A DNA stretch of 64,000 nucleotides from Symbiodinium natans (Eukaryota; Sar; Dinophyceae; Suessiales; Symbiodiniaceae). A model generated the notes under the pieces. That model ran no database searches. It was not told the origin of the DNA and saw only the letters and a program-made list of their open reading frames with translations. Positions 785 through 61,513 of the stretch are shown piece by piece. A program made the translations under genes and the position numbers. How positions within the stretch are numbered: position 1 is the stretch's first letter; every line of letters begins with the position of its first letter. The DNA lies in contig CAJNDS010001635.1 in NCBI GenBank assembly GCA_905221605.1, positions 310,001 to 374,000 of the forward strand, given 5' to 3'.

Positions 785-1074
785 GGGTTGTGGGATTTGG
801 CCATGGTCACGCTTGCAAGCTCTCGTTGTTGCGAGTGATTTTCACTTGGTGTTGTCCGGTGGTCTTCGCCTTGGAACTGACTTGGAACGTGGCTCTCAGT
901 GACCACTTGTTTGAGTTAGTGGTTGGGCTTTCGCGGGGGTCAAGTCTAAGCTGATTTGCCTTCCAAGTCCTAACCTCCCTAACCCTGGACCGCGCAGATC
1001 GAGAAGCTTACCGAGGCAAATAGGTCTTCTCACCCCGAATGGTTCTTGACAGGGCACAGCCAAGCCATGGTCAA

Positions 1075-2636
1075 ATGGCGCTGGATGTGACTTCCAAACC
1101 CTCGGATCCCTCTGTGGTCTCCGTGGAACTTGAGCCGACCCTTCTGCGGGGCATTCCGCTACACTCATGCCTGAGCGGCACGGGACATCACTGGCGCCGC
1201 CCCCGCACCACCCAGAGTTTCACGACCAGCAGCCAGCAGACCAAACAGTTCGATATTTTCTTCAGCCATGACTGGGGAAGCATCCGCTTAAGCAAGCATC
1301 TGTCGCTGCTGATTGTTTTCAATGGTCTCCCAGCTGCCGGTGCAGGTTTCGCAGCGAGTCTCGTCATGACACTGCTGGAAACCTCTCACATACTGCCCAG
1401 GTCGTTTTGGCTGCCAATCTTCGGGCACGCGGTGCAGCTGATTGTGTTGTTCTTCTGGCAGTATGCGTGGATGTGTCTGAGAGGGCCAAGAATGGCTTTT
1501 GTTGACAGCTCGTGCATACCGCAGGGTGACGAGGTGCTGAAGGCGAGATGCATACAAAGTCTGGACCAATTCCTCAGCAAGTCGAAACAGCTTGTCGCCC
1601 TTTGGTCGCCTCAATACTTTCAGAGGCTGTGGTGCTCTTATGAGCTTGGATTCTTCCTGATGAAGCAGAAGAGCGCACAGACACTTCACTTCGTACCTGT
1701 CCAGATCGGCCTTCTTTGCCTCCTTACTTTCGTGGGTGTGACGATTTTCCAAGCTCCACTAAACATTGCCCTCTATGCTTTTCAGTTGACCTGGTTTCAG
1801 AGGGTTGCCGTGGTGTGTTCCTCGTGCGTAGTTCAGGGAGCCATCGTACTTCCTCTTCAATTCTTCTTCTGGACCAACTTGTTGAAGGAGCTCAAAGAGC
1901 TACCGCAGCAACTGAGGGAGTTCCGAGTGCAGGACTCTCAGTGCACCTGCTGCACACTGCAGCATTGCCACCCAGTGACCAAGCAGCCCATGCCTTGCGA
2001 CCGCGAGCTCATCTACGCGAGGATCCACAGTGCCTTCGGAAGGAGGTTGCAGGAGTCGTCGGCTCTTGAAGCATTCAACGACTACGTGCGGCAGACATTG
2101 GCTTCTTCAGTTGAACGCAATTTCAGGCACCACAGCACGATTTTGAGGTATACATTGCTTGCTGCCGGGCCGCGTCTTCGCCGTACCTGCCCTTGCATAT
2201 ATCAGAAGCCGTCCTTTTCAGCCCACCAGGAGACTACTGGGACATGTTCCTCGAGTACAGCAACTTCCTATACTTTGACCTGGCCATGTTCTGTTTTGTG
2301 CCCATCTTCTTGCTGATTGGACAGTTCGGCGTTTATCGCTCGGGCCGCTCCAGGCGTGTGGTCATCTTGTGCGTCCAGGTGGCGATGGCTAGCTTGGCTG
2401 GCTGCTTGCTTTTGCTGCCCGGGCCAATATTCCGCCGGTGTCTTCCGACAGACTACGAAAGAAGTTGGTTGCACCTGGCGCCGACTGCTGCGATGCTTTG
2501 CCTCAGCATCTGCTTGGCCTGGCTTGCCTGCAGCTGTGGCGGCTGTGTTTCTTCTTCTGAGCAGGCCTCAGAAACATGCGGGAGAAGCTCCAAGCCCCCA
2601 TCCGACGAAGAGAATGAGTCGTGCTTTGAGGTCTGA
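1075..2636 (+). pseudogene. TIR-like multi-spanning membrane protein, copy 1, frameshifted
   Basis: Same protein as the 3212-4780 copy. The start is set at 1075 because this ATG is shared with copy 2; an in-frame ATG at 1039 has no counterpart there. The frame is open through the TIR-like half (KQFDIFFSHDWG, then FVDSSCIPQGDE, then LWCSYELGFF). It is broken at 2167-2169, where GGG replaces the GGGG found at 4304-4307. After the break the ancestral frame continues from about 2170 to a TGA at 2634-2636 and still encodes the last three membrane segments and the acidic tail; the uncorrected frame ends at 2316. Either this is a young pseudogene, or a truncated form is made, or one base is miscalled in the assembly. 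Of 21 codon differences from copy 2 before the break, 16 change the residue, so constraint looks weak. Confidence 0.75.
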
Positions 2637-3211
2637 GGTCCCAAGTCCCCGGTAGGGTGCAGGGCCTACGAGTTCGAAATATTCTCGCCAAATTTTCTTG
2701 AAGCCGCTGTTTGAATGTGAACTAGGCTTCAATGACCTCCGATGGCCTAGGGAGTACTTGAAGCCACTCCCAGTTTCGGCCCCAAATGAACTGAGACTTG
2801 CGGGTTGAGGGTGTGCCCTGAACCCTTACCCAAGATGCGGATCCATGATGAATCCCAAAATCTTAAGTCTTGGATTGCAAGCTTCAGTTTCGATTTCGCC
2901 AAGCAGCTGGGCCTCTAAAGGAGGCTCTTTTCAGCATTGTTGAAGCTGAGAATACGACCCATGGTGCGGTGAGAAAAAGCATGCTTCAGCGCTTGCTTCT
3001 TAGCCAGCATGACAAGATAAGTCGGTTGATGTTCCATTTTTTGGATGTGAGGACCGATGTTGCTTGCGTTGCATCTGATGTGAAGACTTCTCTGAGGATC
3101 GTGGTGGTGATTATCATGATCCAGAACCCTGAGCCCTAAGAAGTTTTCCAAGGCAAATAGGTCCTCTGACCCCGAATTATTCTTAGCAGGGCACAGCCAA
3201 GCCATGGTCAA

Positions 3212-4780
3212 ATGGCGCTGGATGTGACTTCCAAACCAGCGGATCCCTCTGTGGGCTCCGTGGAACTTGAGCCGACCCTTCTGCGGGGCATTCCGCTACA
3301 CTCATGCCTGAGCGGCACGGGACATCACTGGCGCCGCCCCCGCACCACCCAGAGTTTCACGACCAGCAGCCAGCAGACCAAACAGTTCGATATCTTCTTC
3401 AGCCATGACTGGGGAAGCAGCCGCTTAAGCAAGCATCTGTCGCTGCTGATGGCTTTCAATGGTCTCCCAGCTGCCGGTGCATGTTTCGCAGCGAGTCTCA
3501 TCATGACACTGCTGGAAACCTCTCACATACTGCCCACGTCGTTTTGGCTGCCAATCTTCGGGCACACGGTGCAGCTGATTGTGTTGTTCTTCTGGCAGTA
3601 TGCGTGGACGTGTCTGAGAGGGCCAAGAATGGCTTTCGTTGACAGCTCGTGCATACCGCAGGGTGACGAGGTGCTGAAGGCGAGATGCATACAAAGTCTG
3701 GACCAATTCCTCAGCAAGTCGAAACAGCTCGTCGCCCTTTGGTCGCCTCAATACTTTCATAGGCTGTGGTGCTCTTATGAGCTTGGATTCTTCCTGATGA
3801 AGCAGAAGAGCGCACAGACACTTCACTTCGTGCCTGTCCAGATCGGCCTTCTTTGCCTCCTTACTTTCGTGGGTGTGACGATGATCCAAGCTCCACTAAA
3901 CATTGCCCTCTATGCTTTTCAGTTGACCTGGTTTCAGAGGGTTGCCGTGGTGTGTTCCTCGTGCGTAGTTCAGGGAGCCATCGTACTTCCTCTTCAATTC
4001 TTCTTCTGGACCAACTTGTTGAAGGAGCTCGAAGAGCTACCGCAGCAACTGAGGGAGTTCCGAGTGCAGGACTCTCAGTGCACCTGCTGCACACTGCAGC
4101 ATTGCCACCCAGTGACCAAGCAGCCCATGCCTTGCGACCGCGAGCTCATCTACGCGAGGATCCACAGTGCCTTCGGAAGGAGGTTGCAGGAGTCGTCGGC
4201 TCTTGAAGCATTCAACGACTACGTGCGGCAGACATTGGCTTCTTCAGTTGAAAGCAATTTCAGGCACCACAGCATGATTTTGAGGTATACATTGCTTGCT
4301 GCCGGGGCCGCGTCTTGGCCCTATCTGCCCTTGCACATATCAGAAGCCATCCGCCTCAGCGCACCAGGAGACTACTGGCTCATATTCCTCTTCTACCTCA
4401 ACTTCTTATACATTGACTTGGCCGTCTTCTGTCTTGTGCCCATCTTCTTGCTGATCGGACAGTTCGGCGTTTATCGCGCGGGCCGCTCCTGGCGTGTGGT
4501 CATCCTGTGCGTTCAGGTGGCGATGGCTGGCTTGGCTTGTTGCTTGCTGCTTCTGCCCGGGCCGATATACCGGCAATATCTCCATCTACGCGACGAAAGA
4601 AGTTGGTTGCACCTGGCGCCGACTACTGCGATGCTTTGCCTCTGCATCTGCTTGGCCTGGCTTGCCTGCGGCTGTGCTTCTTCTTCTTTCGAGCAGACCT
4701 CGAACACGTGCACAGAAACAGGCGGGAGCAGCTTCAAGCCCCCATCCGACGAAGAGAATGAGTCGTGCTTTGAGATTTGA
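3212..4780 (+). CDS. TIR-like multi-spanning membrane protein, copy 2, intact (522 aa)
   Basis: Residues 59-68 (FDIFFSHDWG) match the first strand and loop of TIR-type domains. Residues 141-153 (AFVDSSCIPQGDE) match the BB-loop region, and 171-196 (KQLVALWSPQYF, LWCSYELGFF) match the later strand with the W-C-x-x-E-L signature. Between the first and second block lie two strongly hydrophobic stretches (about 76-100 and 110-133). Further membrane-like stretches lie at about 207-226, 243-262, 390-415, 428-449 and 471-488. A Cys-rich loop (290-308, CTCC, C, C) and an acidic tail follow. No intron is evident. TIR domains in general are signalling or NAD-cleaving modules; the catalytic state of this one cannot be judged. 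FFSHDWG membrane proteins recur in dinoflagellates, to my knowledge without an assigned function. Confidence 0.85.
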   Translation: MALDVTSKPADPSVGSVELEPTLLRGIPLHSCLSGTGHHWRRPRTTQSFTTSSQQTKQFDIFFSHDWGSSRLSKHLSLLMAFNGLPAAGACFAASLIMTLLETSHILPTSFWLPIFGHTVQLIVLFFWQYAWTCLRGPRMAFVDSSCIPQGDEVLKARCIQSLDQFLSKSKQLVALWSPQYFHRLWCSYELGFFLMKQKSAQTLHFVPVQIGLLCLLTFVGVTMIQAPLNIALYAFQLTWFQRVAVVCSSCVVQGAIVLPLQFFFWTNLLKELEELPQQLREFRVQDSQCTCCTLQHCHPVTKQPMPCDRELIYARIHSAFGRRLQESSALEAFNDYVRQTLASSVESNFRHHSMILRYTLLAAGAASWPYLPLHISEAIRLSAPGDYWLIFLFYLNFLYIDLAVFCLVPIFLLIGQFGVYRAGRSWRVVILCVQVAMAGLACCLLLLPGPIYRQYLHLRDERSWLHLAPTTAMLCLCICLAWLACGCASSSFEQTSNTCTETGGSSFKPPSDEENESCFEI

Positions 4781-5264
4781 GATCCCAAGTCCCCGGTAGG
4801 GTGCAGGGTATACGAGTTCGAAATATTCTCGCCAAGTTTTGTTGAAGCCGCTGTTTGAATGTGAACTAGGCTTCAATGACCTCCGATGGCCTAGGGAGTA
4901 CTTGAAGCCACTCCCAGTTTCGGCCTCAAATAAACCGAGGCTTGCGGGTTGAGGGTGTGCCCTAAACCCTTAACCCAAGGTGCAGACCCATGATGAATCC
5001 CCAAATCTAAGCATTTAAGTCTTGGATTGCAAGCTTCTGCTTCGATTTCGCCAAGCAGCTAAGCCTCTGAAGGAGGCTCTGTATTGTTGAAGCCGAGAAG
5101 GCGACCCCGTGGCGCGGCAAGAAATCAGCCTGCTTCAGCTCTTGTTTCTTAGCAACCATGATAAGGTGAGTCGGTTTGGGGTTTAGGGTTTAGGGTCTAG
5201 AGTTTGTGTAAGGTAAGTCGGTTTGACATGACGGGGGTATAAGCCTAAGCTGCTCGGTTCCTTG

Positions 5265-12707: not shown

Positions 12708-12815
12708 GCAGGGTTTGTATTTCTGTTTTTGGTGAGTGTATATAAGGTTCTTTTTAATATTTGTGAGTGTATACATTGGGTGTCCTTTTGGGGGCACAAG
12801 AAATATAAACCCTAC
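12708..12815. mobile_element. MITE family 6, copy 1
   Basis: Ends GCAGGGTTTGTATTTCT (12708-12724) and AGAAATATAAACCCTAC (12799-12815) are inverted complements at 15 of 17 positions. The interior (GGTGAGTGTATATAAGGTTC; GGGTGTCCTTTTGGGG) is shared with 30538-30646. It encodes nothing. Confidence 0.75.
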
Positions 12816-12925
12816 TTCGACATACCTGTGCAATGCTTTAGCGTCTCCAAAGCAAGTTGGCCACTCCAGCCGGTGTGCCATGTTGTGCCTTTGTGCCAAC
12901 CGGGTTTAGGGTTTAGGGTTTATGG

Positions 12926-12937
12926 TTTTGGCTCAAG
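12926..12937 (+). other. Relict spliced-leader 3' end
   Basis: TTTTGGCTCAAG is an exact match to the last 12 bases of the dinoflagellate spliced leader, recalled from general knowledge. The next 12 bases, TTTGGCTACGAG, resemble a second, older leader remnant (one extra base and one change). It lies 56 bases before the ATG of the intronless frame. Confidence 0.7.
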
Positions 12938-12993
12938 TTTGGCTACGAGACCCAAATGGGTAAACATTAATTCGTGATCTGCCTCGAGCTGCA

Positions 12994-13668
12994 ATGGATG
13001 CTAAACTGGCTGCGTGTTTAGGCTACTCTGTCAGATTGGCAACACGATGTGGATATATGGAGCTCCTACCACATCTTCAACAGGCTTTGTTTGCACTTGT
13101 TTCCTGTGATGCACATGTTGATTCGGCGGCAGTCCCCCAAGAATCCCGCAGGCGAAGAACAATCTCTTTGTTTCAGGCTCTTCATCCTGATGGCAGTGAT
13201 GTACCAAATGCTCAATATGCTCAGGAGGTGAAACTCGTTGACGCCCCGCAGCGACTCCTTGCAGATGCGGAGGCGCAGACATGTGAGGACATCATTTCAG
13301 CAGGTGAGTGCACCATGATTGTGGACAAGATTATGGATCAAGCGAAGGCATCTGCGGTGGCACTTGAAGAACGCTTGCGCCAACTGGAGGCCGACACATC
13401 GGATCACTTCTTGCCCACGGCCAGCTCCATTGATTCACCTGGCACTGCGGCGTGTTCTTCAGTTCCTCATGGCCTGACGATGGCATGTGACGTTCACAGG
13501 CCACAAGCCTCACGATGCCCAGGCGTGCGTGCTAGGATTCCTGACCATGACCTTGCGAGTTTGAAAGCCCAACACATCGAGCTCCGCCGAGCAATGAAAG
13601 CACAGCGAAGACTGGAACGACAAGCCCGTGAACAGCAAGGGCTGCCTAGTCACAGCTTGAACTTGTGA
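12994..13668 (+). CDS. Hypothetical protein, 224 aa, intronless, on the retroposed copy
   Basis: The start at 12994 is the first ATG after an in-frame TAA (12961) and after the relict leader. There are no internal stops. The N-terminal third is mixed (MDAKLAACLGYS, then SRRRRTISLFQAL). Residues about 110-135 (IMDQAKASAVALEERLRQLE) and about 190-216 (LKAQHIELRRAMKAQRRLER) are strongly helical and charged, likely coiled coil. I recognise no family. The absence of introns, unlike neighbouring islands, fits retroposition. It could be a functional retrogene, since the frame is intact. Confidence 0.65.
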   Translation: MDAKLAACLGYSVRLATRCGYMELLPHLQQALFALVSCDAHVDSAAVPQESRRRRTISLFQALHPDGSDVPNAQYAQEVKLVDAPQRLLADAEAQTCEDIISAGECTMIVDKIMDQAKASAVALEERLRQLEADTSDHFLPTASSIDSPGTAACSSVPHGLTMACDVHRPQASRCPGVRARIPDHDLASLKAQHIELRRAMKAQRRLERQAREQQGLPSHSLNL

Positions 13669-13858
13669 AGGAGGTCTTGCGTAATTCTTCCGATCAGTTG
13701 CATGCTTTTGCTTGATTTCTCATGAATAGCTTGAGGGATCCCTGCTTCTCTTGAAAACCTTGAGATGGTTGCTCCAATTATCAGATGCAAGTCACTGCGA
13801 TTTCCTGACCATTCCCGGCCGACTCCCCAAGCCCGGATGCAAAAAGGGTTTATGGTTT

Positions 13859-14896
13859 AGGGTTTAGGGCTCCCTGTTCCAGGAGTGCAGCCCAACGTGA
13901 TTCACACCAATGCTGCTGCCAAAGCCTGCGCACGCGGACGCCCTTCTGCAATGCAATTTCCTGACTTTGCACCCTCAGTCCTGGCCCACGAAACACCTCA
14001 ACATCGTGCTTGCGCTTAGACACGGGTGGCCCAGTTGCAGGGTACATGCTGTGTTGGCAGACGATCTCCCCCTTCACATCAAACCACCTTAGCAGTAGGT
14101 CACCTCTGATGCTAGCTATTGTCATCATTTTGAACTTTGCATTCTTGTGTGTTTTCTTGTTGCTTTACGTTGAGGATGCCGGCGTGTTTCTCAGCGCCCA
14201 CCTATGAACTATGCCTACACGTTTTTTTTATATCACGAGCAGGATGCCAGTGGTCTCTAGCAACTCTCTACACCTCTACGCAAGGGTCAGACCCTTCTGT
14301 GGGGCATTGAACATGAAGACGTCATGCATATGTGATACGTAGATGTACTGTGTGTATGTATATATAGGTCCTGGCGTACTTTGTGTCGCAGGTTTGTTCC
14401 TTGCCAGGCAAGATTTGGACTTAGGCACTCGTAGGTAAAGACATCTTCCAACACCTACGAGGTTCTCAGTGGGTTCTGGTTCTTCAGCTCCTTCGCGCGG
14501 CAGATGGGATCGAGCTTGGCCCCCAGATCCATGCTATTCCGAAATTTCATGCTCCGAAGCTCGCACCCTACAAACACACTACGCGTCAAGCCATCTACAC
14601 GTGGGCTGTCGCGATGCCAGATATGCCAGCTCAGGCAGCTTACTACAAGTAGCCCCAGGTTAGGTCACGGTGACTAGTAACCCTGCTACAGCTCCAGATA
14701 TAAACCTTCCCATGAACCCCTAAGCAGGCTGTGAGCCAAAGCACGACTAGCTTCCGCTAATTTGTGGCTCCTTCGGGTTTTGGGCTTAGGGTTCAGGGCT
14801 CGTATTTCTGTATGTTCCTTAGCGCTTGTACGGTACCTCTATAATTTGTAAGTCCCAAGGTTAGGGGAGTAGAGCCAGCGAGTGCGCCTGCGTGCA
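13859..14896. other. No recognisable gene
   Basis: Short open frames at 14010-14207 and 14469-14663 show no motif. A few telomere-type units directly follow the retrocopy. Confidence 0.35.
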
Positions 14897-30537: not shown

Positions 30538-30646
30538 GCAGGGTTTCTATTAGTGTTTTTGGTGAGTGTATATAAGGTTCCTTTTTAAAATTGGTTAGTG
30601 TATAGATTGGGCGTCCTTTTGGGGATACAAGAAATACAAGCCCTAC
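30538..30646. mobile_element. MITE family 6, copy 2
   Basis: Ends GCAGGGTTTCTATTAGT and AGAAATACAAGCCCTAC. The interior matches 12708-12815 nearly base for base (GGTGAGTGTATATAAGGTTC; CGTCCTTTTGGGG). Same orientation as copy 1. Confidence 0.75.
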
Positions 30647-31132
30647 ATCATGACATGAAGCCACGGAGCGAGTTCGTTAGGTCAACATCTTGGCCTCCGC
30701 TTGCTGCCTGCAATTCGGATTCAGGGTTCAGGATTCAGCCCGAAGTCCCAAACCCTAAGCCCCAAAGAAATAGGTACATATATATATATATATGTATATA
30801 TATATACACATAGCGATCAGGGTTCAGGGTTCAGGGTTTAGCAGGAGTTGGGGGTCAAGTACCAAACGCTGGGCTTTTGAGCGGCACAGGTTGTTTTAAA
30901 TGCTGCAGAGGATTCCTTAGTTCTCCCACCCTCAGAGAATCGGGCAACAAGTCCTGGAGAGTACTCCTCCTTTTTGAATTTGGTGGGCAAGCACTGTGGC
31001 AAAACAAACGTACGGCTGAAAACGAGGCTTGCGCACTCATGCGGTGAACTTTGGGGTTGCAGCTTGTCCGCTCAGGTTTGTTACTGAAGCACGTGCCTGA
31101 GACGCGGTTCAGCATCCTTGCCGTCCCTACAC

Positions 31133-43225: not shown

Positions 43226-44006
43226 CACTTGAAACTTAGTTTTTGTCCTTAAACCCTAAACGCTAAACCCAATGTCCTGGCTTTGCAAAGGGTTTTTGGG
43301 ATTTAGGGTTGAAAAGGAAGTGTATTACGCAGCTTGGTCCAACTCCTACATTTTTCAGACTTCCTTTGTGATTCTTTTGACCAGATACTCTTGACAGGTG
43401 TCGTTCCTGAGATGTTTTCTCAGCAAGCTATTGCTCTCGTGTCTCTGTCCTGAGTACTGAGAGGGGGGGGGATAACTTTGCAGCGCCCGGCAGGCCTGGA
43501 TGCAAAAGGGTTTATGAAGTTTAGGATTTTGGGGGGTCTTGGGGTCGTTTTCATTCATCCCATGAGTCCAATTTAATTGGAGGTTGCTTGCTGCACGCCA
43601 CAGGCCCCTTTAGCACACAAAGGCCACCAACTGAAACTCTTATAATTGCCAGGCAAAGAAAGGCACCATAAACTCCAAGTCAGCCTGACCACTCCCCATT
43701 GCCCATGGTCGATTTTGGGAATGTGGGGCGTGGCTTGCAGGCGTAGTGAGGCATATAAACCCTAAACCCTAAACCCAAAACCCTAAACCCTAATATAGCG
43801 GTTCAGGCTTCGGAGAGGCTCCTGGAACTTAGTCGTATCTCTGCCCGCTGGAAGCTGTTTCGGGGAGCAGCCTTGGAATTTCGGTGCCGCGCGGCACTAG
43901 TAGGAACGCCCTTAGCGCTGCTCGCACACCGAAGGGGGAGGCAAATCCCAAACCTAAGCCCCAAGCCCCAAACCCCAAACCCTAAGCCCTTTTAAGATCT
44001 CTTCAG

Positions 44007-45010: not shown

Positions 45011-46264
45011 TCTAAATCCTGGGCTGTCTGGTTCGTGGATGATGCGCTCTGCTTTTTCCGTTCGCTCTCCCAAGCTGCTGCGTTGCTGCCACAACTGCTC
45101 GATGCTCTCCGTTGCGCCGGCCTGAGCATTGACATTCACAAATGCGCGCTGCTCTCCTTGTCGACCGTGCGCGGCCTGCCAGTGGGGCTGCGTGGCCTGC
45201 CGCAGGTGGACCACGTTAAGTTTCTTGGTGCAGTGTTGTCCCTATCGGGAACGGATGAGCCGCTGGTGTCTTCTTTGCTGTCGCGCACTTCAGCTGCCTT
45301 CATGCAGAATCGGCCGCTGCTGGTGTCTGCTGCCTCCAGCATCCCTCAGAAGCTTGCGCTGCACCACGCTTTGGTCATGTCAACAGTGCGCTGGTTGATA
45401 GGCTGTGTGAGCCCTTCTGCTGACCTTCTCCGCCAAGTGAGGGTGCATGGGGTCACGATGATGATTTGGATCCTAGGCTTGACTTGCCATCAAGAGTGGT
45501 ATGATGTTCGAATGCTGACGGAGGTGAGACATATTGCTAAGTGCTGGTGCAGGGCCTGGTATGGATGTCTGCTCGACGCGTACGTCCTCTCACAAGGTTG
45601 GGCGTGGCTTGGTCATGCTCTCCGGCATCAGCATGCTCCTCTTCTGCGCATGGTTGTAGCTTGCGAAGATTCCTTCATGGCTTGTCAGCGAGAAGGGGGG
45701 CGACGAGCACGAACTGGCCCTGACAACTCCTCCTGGCGCCGGCATGCCCGATGGTTGGCGGCTCAAGGCTTAGACATGCAGGAGGTTGCGCAAGACCGAG
45801 TTGCCTGGCGAGGCCTGGCAGAGGGTTGGCTCACGCACTGGGCAGTGGAGAGATCCGCGGCGGGGACCAACGTTCTGCAGGTGGACGAGCAGTGCCAGTC
45901 GTGGAGTAGGAGATGTCTTCTAGGGGTTGCTGCACGGTCAAAGCCTGTGTTTGCCTGCATTGGTGGCCGCTGCTGTACCTTGGCATATCATCACAGGGTG
46001 CGCGGCTGGGTGGAGCACGAATCTGAGTGGCCTTGTCCTGGGGCTGGCACGCTCTTGGGTCGGCTGAAAGATCTCGTAGCAACGGAGCTCAAAGTTGTGC
46101 ATGTCCGCCTTTTCTTGCACTTTCATGTCGAGATTGAGTTGGAGTGGCCCACTGCCTTTCGACCGCTTTGGAGCGGGGAGATGCATGTAGTGGTCGAGTG
46201 GAGCCGGCTTCCTTCCAGCTGGCTGTATTTGATGCCGGAGGCCTTTGCGCGAGCGCGCGTGTGA
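45011..46264 (+). CDS. LINE-type reverse transcriptase, 5'-truncated (C-terminal half)
   Basis: Open from the left element edge to TGA 46262-46264. The frame begins SKSWAVWFVDDALCFF: F-V-D-D is the catalytic Y/F-x-D-D motif of reverse transcriptase. SIDIHKC and HVKFLGAVLS follow at the positions expected for the palm end and the F-L-G motif. Downstream are W-L-G-H-A-L-R (residues about 201-207 counted from the GTG at 45035) and WRRHARWLAA, QDRVAWRGLA, typical of the thumb and C-terminal region of LINE proteins. The fingers, the earlier palm motifs and the endonuclease are missing, so it cannot act alone. The frame is intact otherwise, suggesting a recent insertion. Confidence 0.85.
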   Translation, partial: SKSWAVWFVDDALCFFRSLSQAAALLPQLLDALRCAGLSIDIHKCALLSLSTVRGLPVGLRGLPQVDHVKFLGAVLSLSGTDEPLVSSLLSRTSAAFMQNRPLLVSAASSIPQKLALHHALVMSTVRWLIGCVSPSADLLRQVRVHGVTMMIWILGLTCHQEWYDVRMLTEVRHIAKCWCRAWYGCLLDAYVLSQGWAWLGHALRHQHAPLLRMVVACEDSFMACQREGGRRARTGPDNSSWRRHARWLAAQGLDMQEVAQDRVAWRGLAEGWLTHWAVERSAAGTNVLQVDEQCQSWSRRCLLGVAARSKPVFACIGGRCCTLAYHHRVRGWVEHESEWPCPGAGTLLGRLKDLVATELKVVHVRLFLHFHVEIELEWPTAFRPLWSGEMHVVVEWSRLPSSWLYLMPEAFARARV

Positions 46265-61302: not shown

Positions 61303-61513
61303 GTAAGTTAAGGCCACTCACAGGATAGGGTTTAGGGTTAAGGGTTTAGGGCTTCACCAGTGCAGCGACTTGAGCGACATCAGGGGTGGGTTCCTGGCGT
61401 GACTTTGCAAGCCAGTTGCAAAAGGGTTTAGGGTTTAGGGTTTAGGGTTTGGGTTCCAAACTCATGCGGCACCTAAGGCCTACAGAGCCCCGACGATCAG
61501 CCGCAACTCCTTG

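Follow-up and report, generated by a model that had tools for sequence, protein, structure and literature searches.

The stretch at positions 12926-13845 of the window (the whole 64,000-nt piece of Symbiodinium natans DNA analyzed here, C1635:310001-374000) is probably a member of a non-autonomous, protein-coding family of mRNA retroposons that is present in multiple copies and is moved by a putative LINE-type machine preferring TTT^AGGG as its target. The copies have 5' ends derived from the leader, short A-runs at the 3' end, and unrelated flanks, and most of them sit in TTTAGGG arrays in one orientation; in the close copies, the frame is uninterrupted. The LINE-type machine itself we infer, since no reverse transcriptase or endonuclease is tied to the family.

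Structure of the window insert and its target

Read on the plus strand, the locus begins with the left part of a TTTAGGG array (12901-12928), which ends in the target duplication AGGGTTTATGGTTT (12915-12928). The truncated 3' end of a direct spliced leader, TTTTGGCTCAAG (12926-12937), overlaps the duplication with its first T's (microhomology) and leads into the start of the mRNA body (12938-12961), formed by TTTG, the motif GCTACGAG (12942-12949), and the 4-bp hairpin ACCC-AAAT-GGGT (12950-12961). The intronless frame of 224 codons (12994-13668) starts with ATG at 12994, 56 bases past the 12-mer. Downstream, a 3' terminal motif ending in CAAGCCCGGATGC (13818-13840), of a type resembling by eye the ends of other members, is followed by five A's (13841-13845), the last of them common to the target duplication, whose second copy (13845-13858) opens the right part of the array (13845-13869). 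The exact spliced-leader 12-mer, the intronless frame, the A-run, and the direct repeat on both sides, reported in a sequence-only reading of this DNA, are all in place.

TTTTGGCTCAAG has no other match with zero or one mismatch in the window, where 0.77 such matches are expected by chance, and thus the 12-mer by itself is weak evidence; given the relatives at independent sites, it is very likely leader-derived. Two other readings of this region were rejected. A second, older direct leader right behind the first would amount to the 7-nt match TTTGGCT, a score reached by 275 of 20000 random 20-mers, and was given up, this stretch being part of the conserved GCTACGAG region; the possibility that TTTT is mere target sequence was abandoned in view of the full leader at the equivalent position of L006/L009.

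The 14-mer AGGGTTTATGGTTT is exact on both sides of the insert. As arrays are very common in the window (79 perfect TTTAGGG runs 14 nt long or longer, the two strands contributing 42 and 37), it is the TATGG variant, not the array, that makes the duplication convincing: GGGTTTATG occurs five times in the window, counting both strands, and only the two flanking copies continue with GTTT. The true length of the duplication is 10-14 nt, since an A of the array and T's of the leader overlap the repeat. Excision of the insert (left flank through the repeat, then right flank) restores an in-phase array, ...GGGTTTAGGGTTTAGGGTTTATGGTTT/AGGGTTTAGGGCTCCC (here and below, a slash marks a junction). The earlier proposal, namely, that the reverse transcript of a trans-spliced mRNA entered an already existing telomere-type array and duplicated the target, is supported. 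A target-site duplication, one of the hallmarks of LINE-mediated retrocopies, is informative in the window copy only and unreadable where arrays are uniform. The succession of an A-run and GGGTTTA within the window was also considered as proof, and was rejected as weak and post hoc (5 of 167 non-internal units follow AAAA, vs. 1 of 391 permuted 7-mers).

The whole window carries a heavy load of interstitial telomere-type repeats. Just upstream of the insert lies the first copy of a 119-nt repeat (12708-12823 and 30538-30656, 87% identical). Both copies of a tandem duplication (1002-3027 and 3139-5176, 92% identical over 2052 columns) contain a long frame with a weak, below cut-off match to the TIR domain, and the second one ends beside a TTTAGGG array. 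At 43491-43515, in GGCCTGGATGCAAAAGGGTTTATG, a 3' end of the family type is fused with a telomere-type unit; neither a leader nor a family frame was found upstream, and this is perhaps another retroposon end. An insert of ~70 nt between two same-orientation arrays (61352-61423), ending GTTGCAAAA/GGGTTTAGGG, is possibly a severely truncated retro-insert. A 409-aa frame at 45035-46264 with a weak RVT_1 match (E 7e-4, below the cut-off) is perhaps a LINE fragment, and we draw no link from it to the family.

A multi-copy family and its ends

The six-frame search of the species' own assembly (759,417,921 bases, 2543 contigs) with the window protein yielded 28 matches, all of which were inspected: the window copy itself, copies at 100, 99, and 97% amino acid identity, a fragment at 75% that contains stops, and 23 distant members. 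The four near-identical copies reside on four contigs and differ in their flanks and 5' ends, and each of the three found besides the window copy is one uninterrupted frame. The earlier view of a one-off retrogene with an intron-bearing parent is not supported. No such parent of the 224-aa protein is among the 28 of 28 matches of this search, which, being based on protein, could miss very short exons; the two shortest matches, considered as exons of the parent, are both broken members beside leader remnants or the 5' motif. Flanks, 3' motifs, hairpins, and substitutions were analyzed in the first 22 members (the window copy and 21 in 20 regions) or subsets of these, and the last six members were inspected later.

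In the first 22 members, similarity stops near the leader and near the A-run or array, and the flanks are otherwise unrelated, with the exception of the tandem pair on C2211. The 3' UTR of L016 and L017 differs from that of L011, L018, and L019, although the aligned frames are 98-99% alike. The sole 5'-truncated copy, L015, has an array at the break; as the search was led by the protein, this gives no frequency of truncation. A leader or its relict is present in genomic DNA upstream of the coding frame, as is characteristic of DinoSL retrogenes. All leader-like sites in the 264 kb examined belong to family members, 200 kb of these being centred on members, so that no genome-wide rate follows.

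The near-identical copies start with TTTTGGCTCAAG (window), AAATGGCTACGGCTCAAG (L012), AAAATGGCTACGGCTCAAG (L013), and GCTACGGCTCAAG (L014). The leader is complete in one relative, where it directly follows TTTAGGGTTT; L009 has the complete CCGTAGCCATTTTGGCTCAAG and a relict. L010 and L022 begin with CCATTTTGGCTCAAG, L018 with AAATGGCTAC/AAGG, L019 with GGCTAC/TGGCTCAAG, and L027 with three leader units, the outermost one reversed.

By eye, a same-orientation TTTAGGG array adjoins the 5' side of 24 out of 28 members, namely, 19 of the first 22 (the truncated L015 and 18 whose end derives from the leader) and five of the last six (L088, L089, L091, L092, L093); in the background, 4.6% of the bases lie in exact arrays of this orientation. 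No opposite-orientation array was found at the 5' junction in the 28 members. Exceptions to this fixed orientation in telomeric repeats, a feature of TRAS/SART-like elements, are L016 with a degenerate array (a match by a looser rule), L017 with no array and AAAAGG on both sides, L025a nested in L025b, and L090 with none. At the 3' side, the same-orientation array is missing in L017, L026, and L028, and degenerate or reduced to a single unit in L009 and L023. The array, previously taken for an incidental site, is the family's recurrent target.

The 3' ends consist of A4-9 followed by GG in 23 of the 28 members (20 of the first 22, for which the pattern was drawn up with such ends already known, and three of the last six, for which it was motif-free). 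Those without are L010 (AAAAAGAGGGTTTAGGG), L025b (cut by the next copy), L088, L089, and L090. The terminal motifs AGCCCGGATGC, AGCCTGGGTTC, AGTCCGGCTGC, and AGTCCGTGCTC are alike, by visual consensus only. The 3' A tail typical of LINE-mediated retrocopies is hence present and short; runs of 4-9 nt are short for a poly(A)-primed LINE, which counts against the LINE reading. The last 29 nt before the A-run of L022 are identical to window positions 13812-13840, the proteins being only 28% identical, as if 3' tails had been exchanged.

GCTACGAG with the 4-bp stem is seen in all 21 of the first 22 members that keep the 5' end, and GCTACGAG in four of the last six, L088 having GTTACGAG and L089, GTTGCGAG. 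In ten subfamily representatives, the stems (chosen as the best ones with a loop of 3-8 nt) show standard pairs in 40 of 40 pair cells with six stem types, which is reached by two of 20000 shuffles; the shuffle ignores relatedness and is support for, not proof of, a covarying hairpin behind the leader. GCTACG is able to pair with CGTAGC of the leader, and this pairing may be of functional importance.

Nine representatives, among them the window copy, have proteins of 214-290 aa, and L009 has one of 144 aa; identity to the window protein is 22-35%. Residues M1, R14, L35, L59, L63, Q95, and T96 are invariant, and a basic C-terminal pattern like DLxxLRxQHxxxRLAxKxxRRxER is seen by eye in most representatives. 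According to the Pfam search, the window protein matches no family above the cut-off, and the family tally of ten members lists no reverse-transcriptase or endonuclease family (best E 0.0086 among the nine non-window members); Pfam thus recognizes in them neither of the two enzymes encoded by TRAS/SART-like elements. The search of solved structures with P0001 gave no match at E up to 1. The AlphaFold model, all-helical, its central helix long and its C-terminal one basic, is of low confidence (pLDDT 61, pTM 0.26), which makes it unsuited to a fold search. Database relatives besides self (ENA source) number two for P0001, at least four for A1, and at least eight for A3 (for A1 and A3, among the best 7997 candidates scored).

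Between subfamilies, pN<pS in 45 out of 45 pairs, with saturated synonymous sites. Inside subfamilies, the ratio of changes is close to neutral in small counts, e.g., five synonymous and 11 nonsynonymous between the window and L014, a frame difference near the C-terminus included. The pattern resembles that expected of source genes under selection and inserts that drift; the suggestion of a functional retrogene at the window locus finds no backing in the roughly neutral, if small, substitution counts of recent copies.

Reversed leader halves and modes of spread

In many copies, half of the leader is reversed, giving ATGGCTACGG/CTCAAG; reverse complementation of the leader's first half, CCGTAGCCAT, yields ATGGCTACGG. 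Genome-wide, the reversed leader ATGGCTACGGCTCAAG has 64 sites (none for the reversed-pattern control), and GGCTCAAG-N0-8-GGCTACGAG has 57 (two for the control). All 64 reversed-leader sites were inspected: a heptamer lies within 30 nt in the same orientation at 43 and in the opposite one at five, vs. 12.4 and 10.0%, respectively, of 26644 background points, which were drawn from member flanks and the window and may differ from the genome mean. The same-orientation heptamer accompanies 24 of 25 sites with a GCTACGAG body and 19 of 39 with other bodies, 20 of the 39 being without it. Four reversed-leader sites (L031, L054, L063, L064) directly abut opposite-orientation CCCTAAA arrays. The full leader 21-mer is found at 205 sites (control, none), and TTTAGGG lies within 12 nt of 17 distinct ones (23 listings), with SL RNA genes still in the set; the 205 probably include spliced-leader RNA gene clusters, such as that on C479 with at least six matches. 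For full-leader sites as a whole, 17/205 does not show an array preference.

If the reversed half arose by snap-back of the cDNA, the retained piece should end by AAAATGGCTAC unless the hairpin was captured. Of the 64 sites, 54 end at or inside the predicted loop, five match one or two bases further, and five run on as the full palindrome CTTGAGCCAAAATGGCTACGGCTCAAG. In L047/L049, inverted arms of 149 and 142 nt, 87% alike, surround exactly 11 nt, AAAATGGCTAC, and the longer body ends CAGGCCAGATGC-AAAAA-GGG; the arms and the loop of the predicted length fit self-primed snap-back, which we infer from these sequence relations.

Taking all this into account, we suggest the following course of events. 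A LINE-type enzyme would nick the C-rich strand next to CCCT^AAA and, by target-primed reverse transcription, copy the trans-spliced mRNA from its A tail, where synthesis is primed, to the 5' end of the leader; family transcripts are predicted to have the leader junction CTCAAG/TTTGGCTACGAG. The cDNA 3' end (...GGCTACGG-3') might be directly joined to the target; the leader is then direct or truncated, as seen in the window copy. Alternatively, it might fold back, its terminal GG pairing with CC of GAGCC and priming further synthesis. This would leave behind half of the leader in reversed form or a short extension, CTTGAG; in rare cases, an inverted repeat would be captured. Source genes would keep the protein under selection, and inserted copies would drift. 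Of the earlier claim of LINE-mediated insertion, the A tail, the duplication, and 5' truncation stand in favor, and the LINE-type enzyme itself is still putative.

Arrays might also have been struck just because they are common, if spliced-leader mRNAs were retroposed at random sites in the ordinary way known from dinoflagellates. The window is indeed rich in arrays, at 21 of 64 reversed-leader sites no unit in the same orientation lies within 30 nt, and enrichment of full-leader sites (17/205) is not shown; however, one-orientation arrays at 24 of 28 members and 43 of 64 reversed sites, against five of 64 in the opposite orientation and a background of 12.4 and 10.0%, make this improbable. 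We consider it very improbable that a single retroposition was followed by spread of the cassette at the DNA level, through recombination or conversion between telomere-like arrays: this would agree with all near-identical copies of the window's subfamily being array-bounded, but 5' ends within the subfamily are direct, reversed, or truncated, A-runs vary, L016 and L017 have another 3' UTR, L015 is 5'-truncated, and L017 lies outside arrays.

Less easily dismissed, though still unlikely, is the inheritance of the reversed half from the DNA of a source gene, copied without fresh trans-splicing, instead of snap-back each time. Protein P0003 has GYGSSLATRP, encodable by GGCTACGGCTCAAGTTTGGCTACG, and judging by the protein only, some transcripts may include the half. 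On the other hand, reversed junctions differ within one subfamily (GG/CTCAAG, C/AAGG, C/TGGCTC) and occur there beside direct leaders, the 64 sites have many bodies, and L047 combines the arms with the exact loop. Beyond the retroposon family itself, it is conceivable, and we hold it as a tentative idea, that dinoflagellate mRNA retroposition is largely due to a telomere-repeat-directed LINE-type machine that self-primes cDNA on the leader foldback, and that the family with the leader-adjacent hairpin has specialized on this machine, acting as a coding retroposon. If so, the spliced leader would both tag and finish the cDNA copy.

Comparison with known systems

Processed retrocopies and SINEs mobilized by LINEs are marked by an A tail, target duplication, and 5' truncation. 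The present family shares all three, and differs from them in being repeatedly mobile and coding, and in its conserved 5' RNA hairpin and putative snap-back 5' ends.

Thousands of leader-tagged retrogenes, most of them orphans, have been described in Symbiodinium, the type of the mediating retroelement being stated as unknown, with LTR elements favored (PMC6050394). The present family has in common with these DinoSL-relict retrogenes a leader remnant 50-100 nt before the start codon, an intronless frame, and several relicts in some copies (PMC6050394). Unlike in the present family, neither telomere-array targeting nor reversed leader ends are described in the parts of that report considered here; an intron-bearing parent with fewer leader copies, another mark of DinoSL retrogenes, has no counterpart among the 28 of 28 six-frame matches, where short exons are missable.

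The Bombyx TRAS/SART LINEs likewise insert in fixed orientation into telomeric repeats, and the TRAS1 nuclease nicks TT^AGG, according to the relevant parts of PMC7265360. These are autonomous LINEs, whereas the unit studied here has a spliced leader and no recognized reverse transcriptase or endonuclease.

No paper on telomere-array-targeted or reversed-leader retrogenes was recognized by title or abstract start among the literature matches listed. Retrogene censuses by the direct leader alone would miss the reversed type, and one-orientation array targeting together with leader snap-back ends may serve as testable fingerprints of the dinoflagellate retroposition agent, tying scattered telomere-type repeats to gene copying. 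Thus, leader-tagged retrogenes and telomere-targeting LINEs are already known, and their combination, along with the snap-back ends, looks new.
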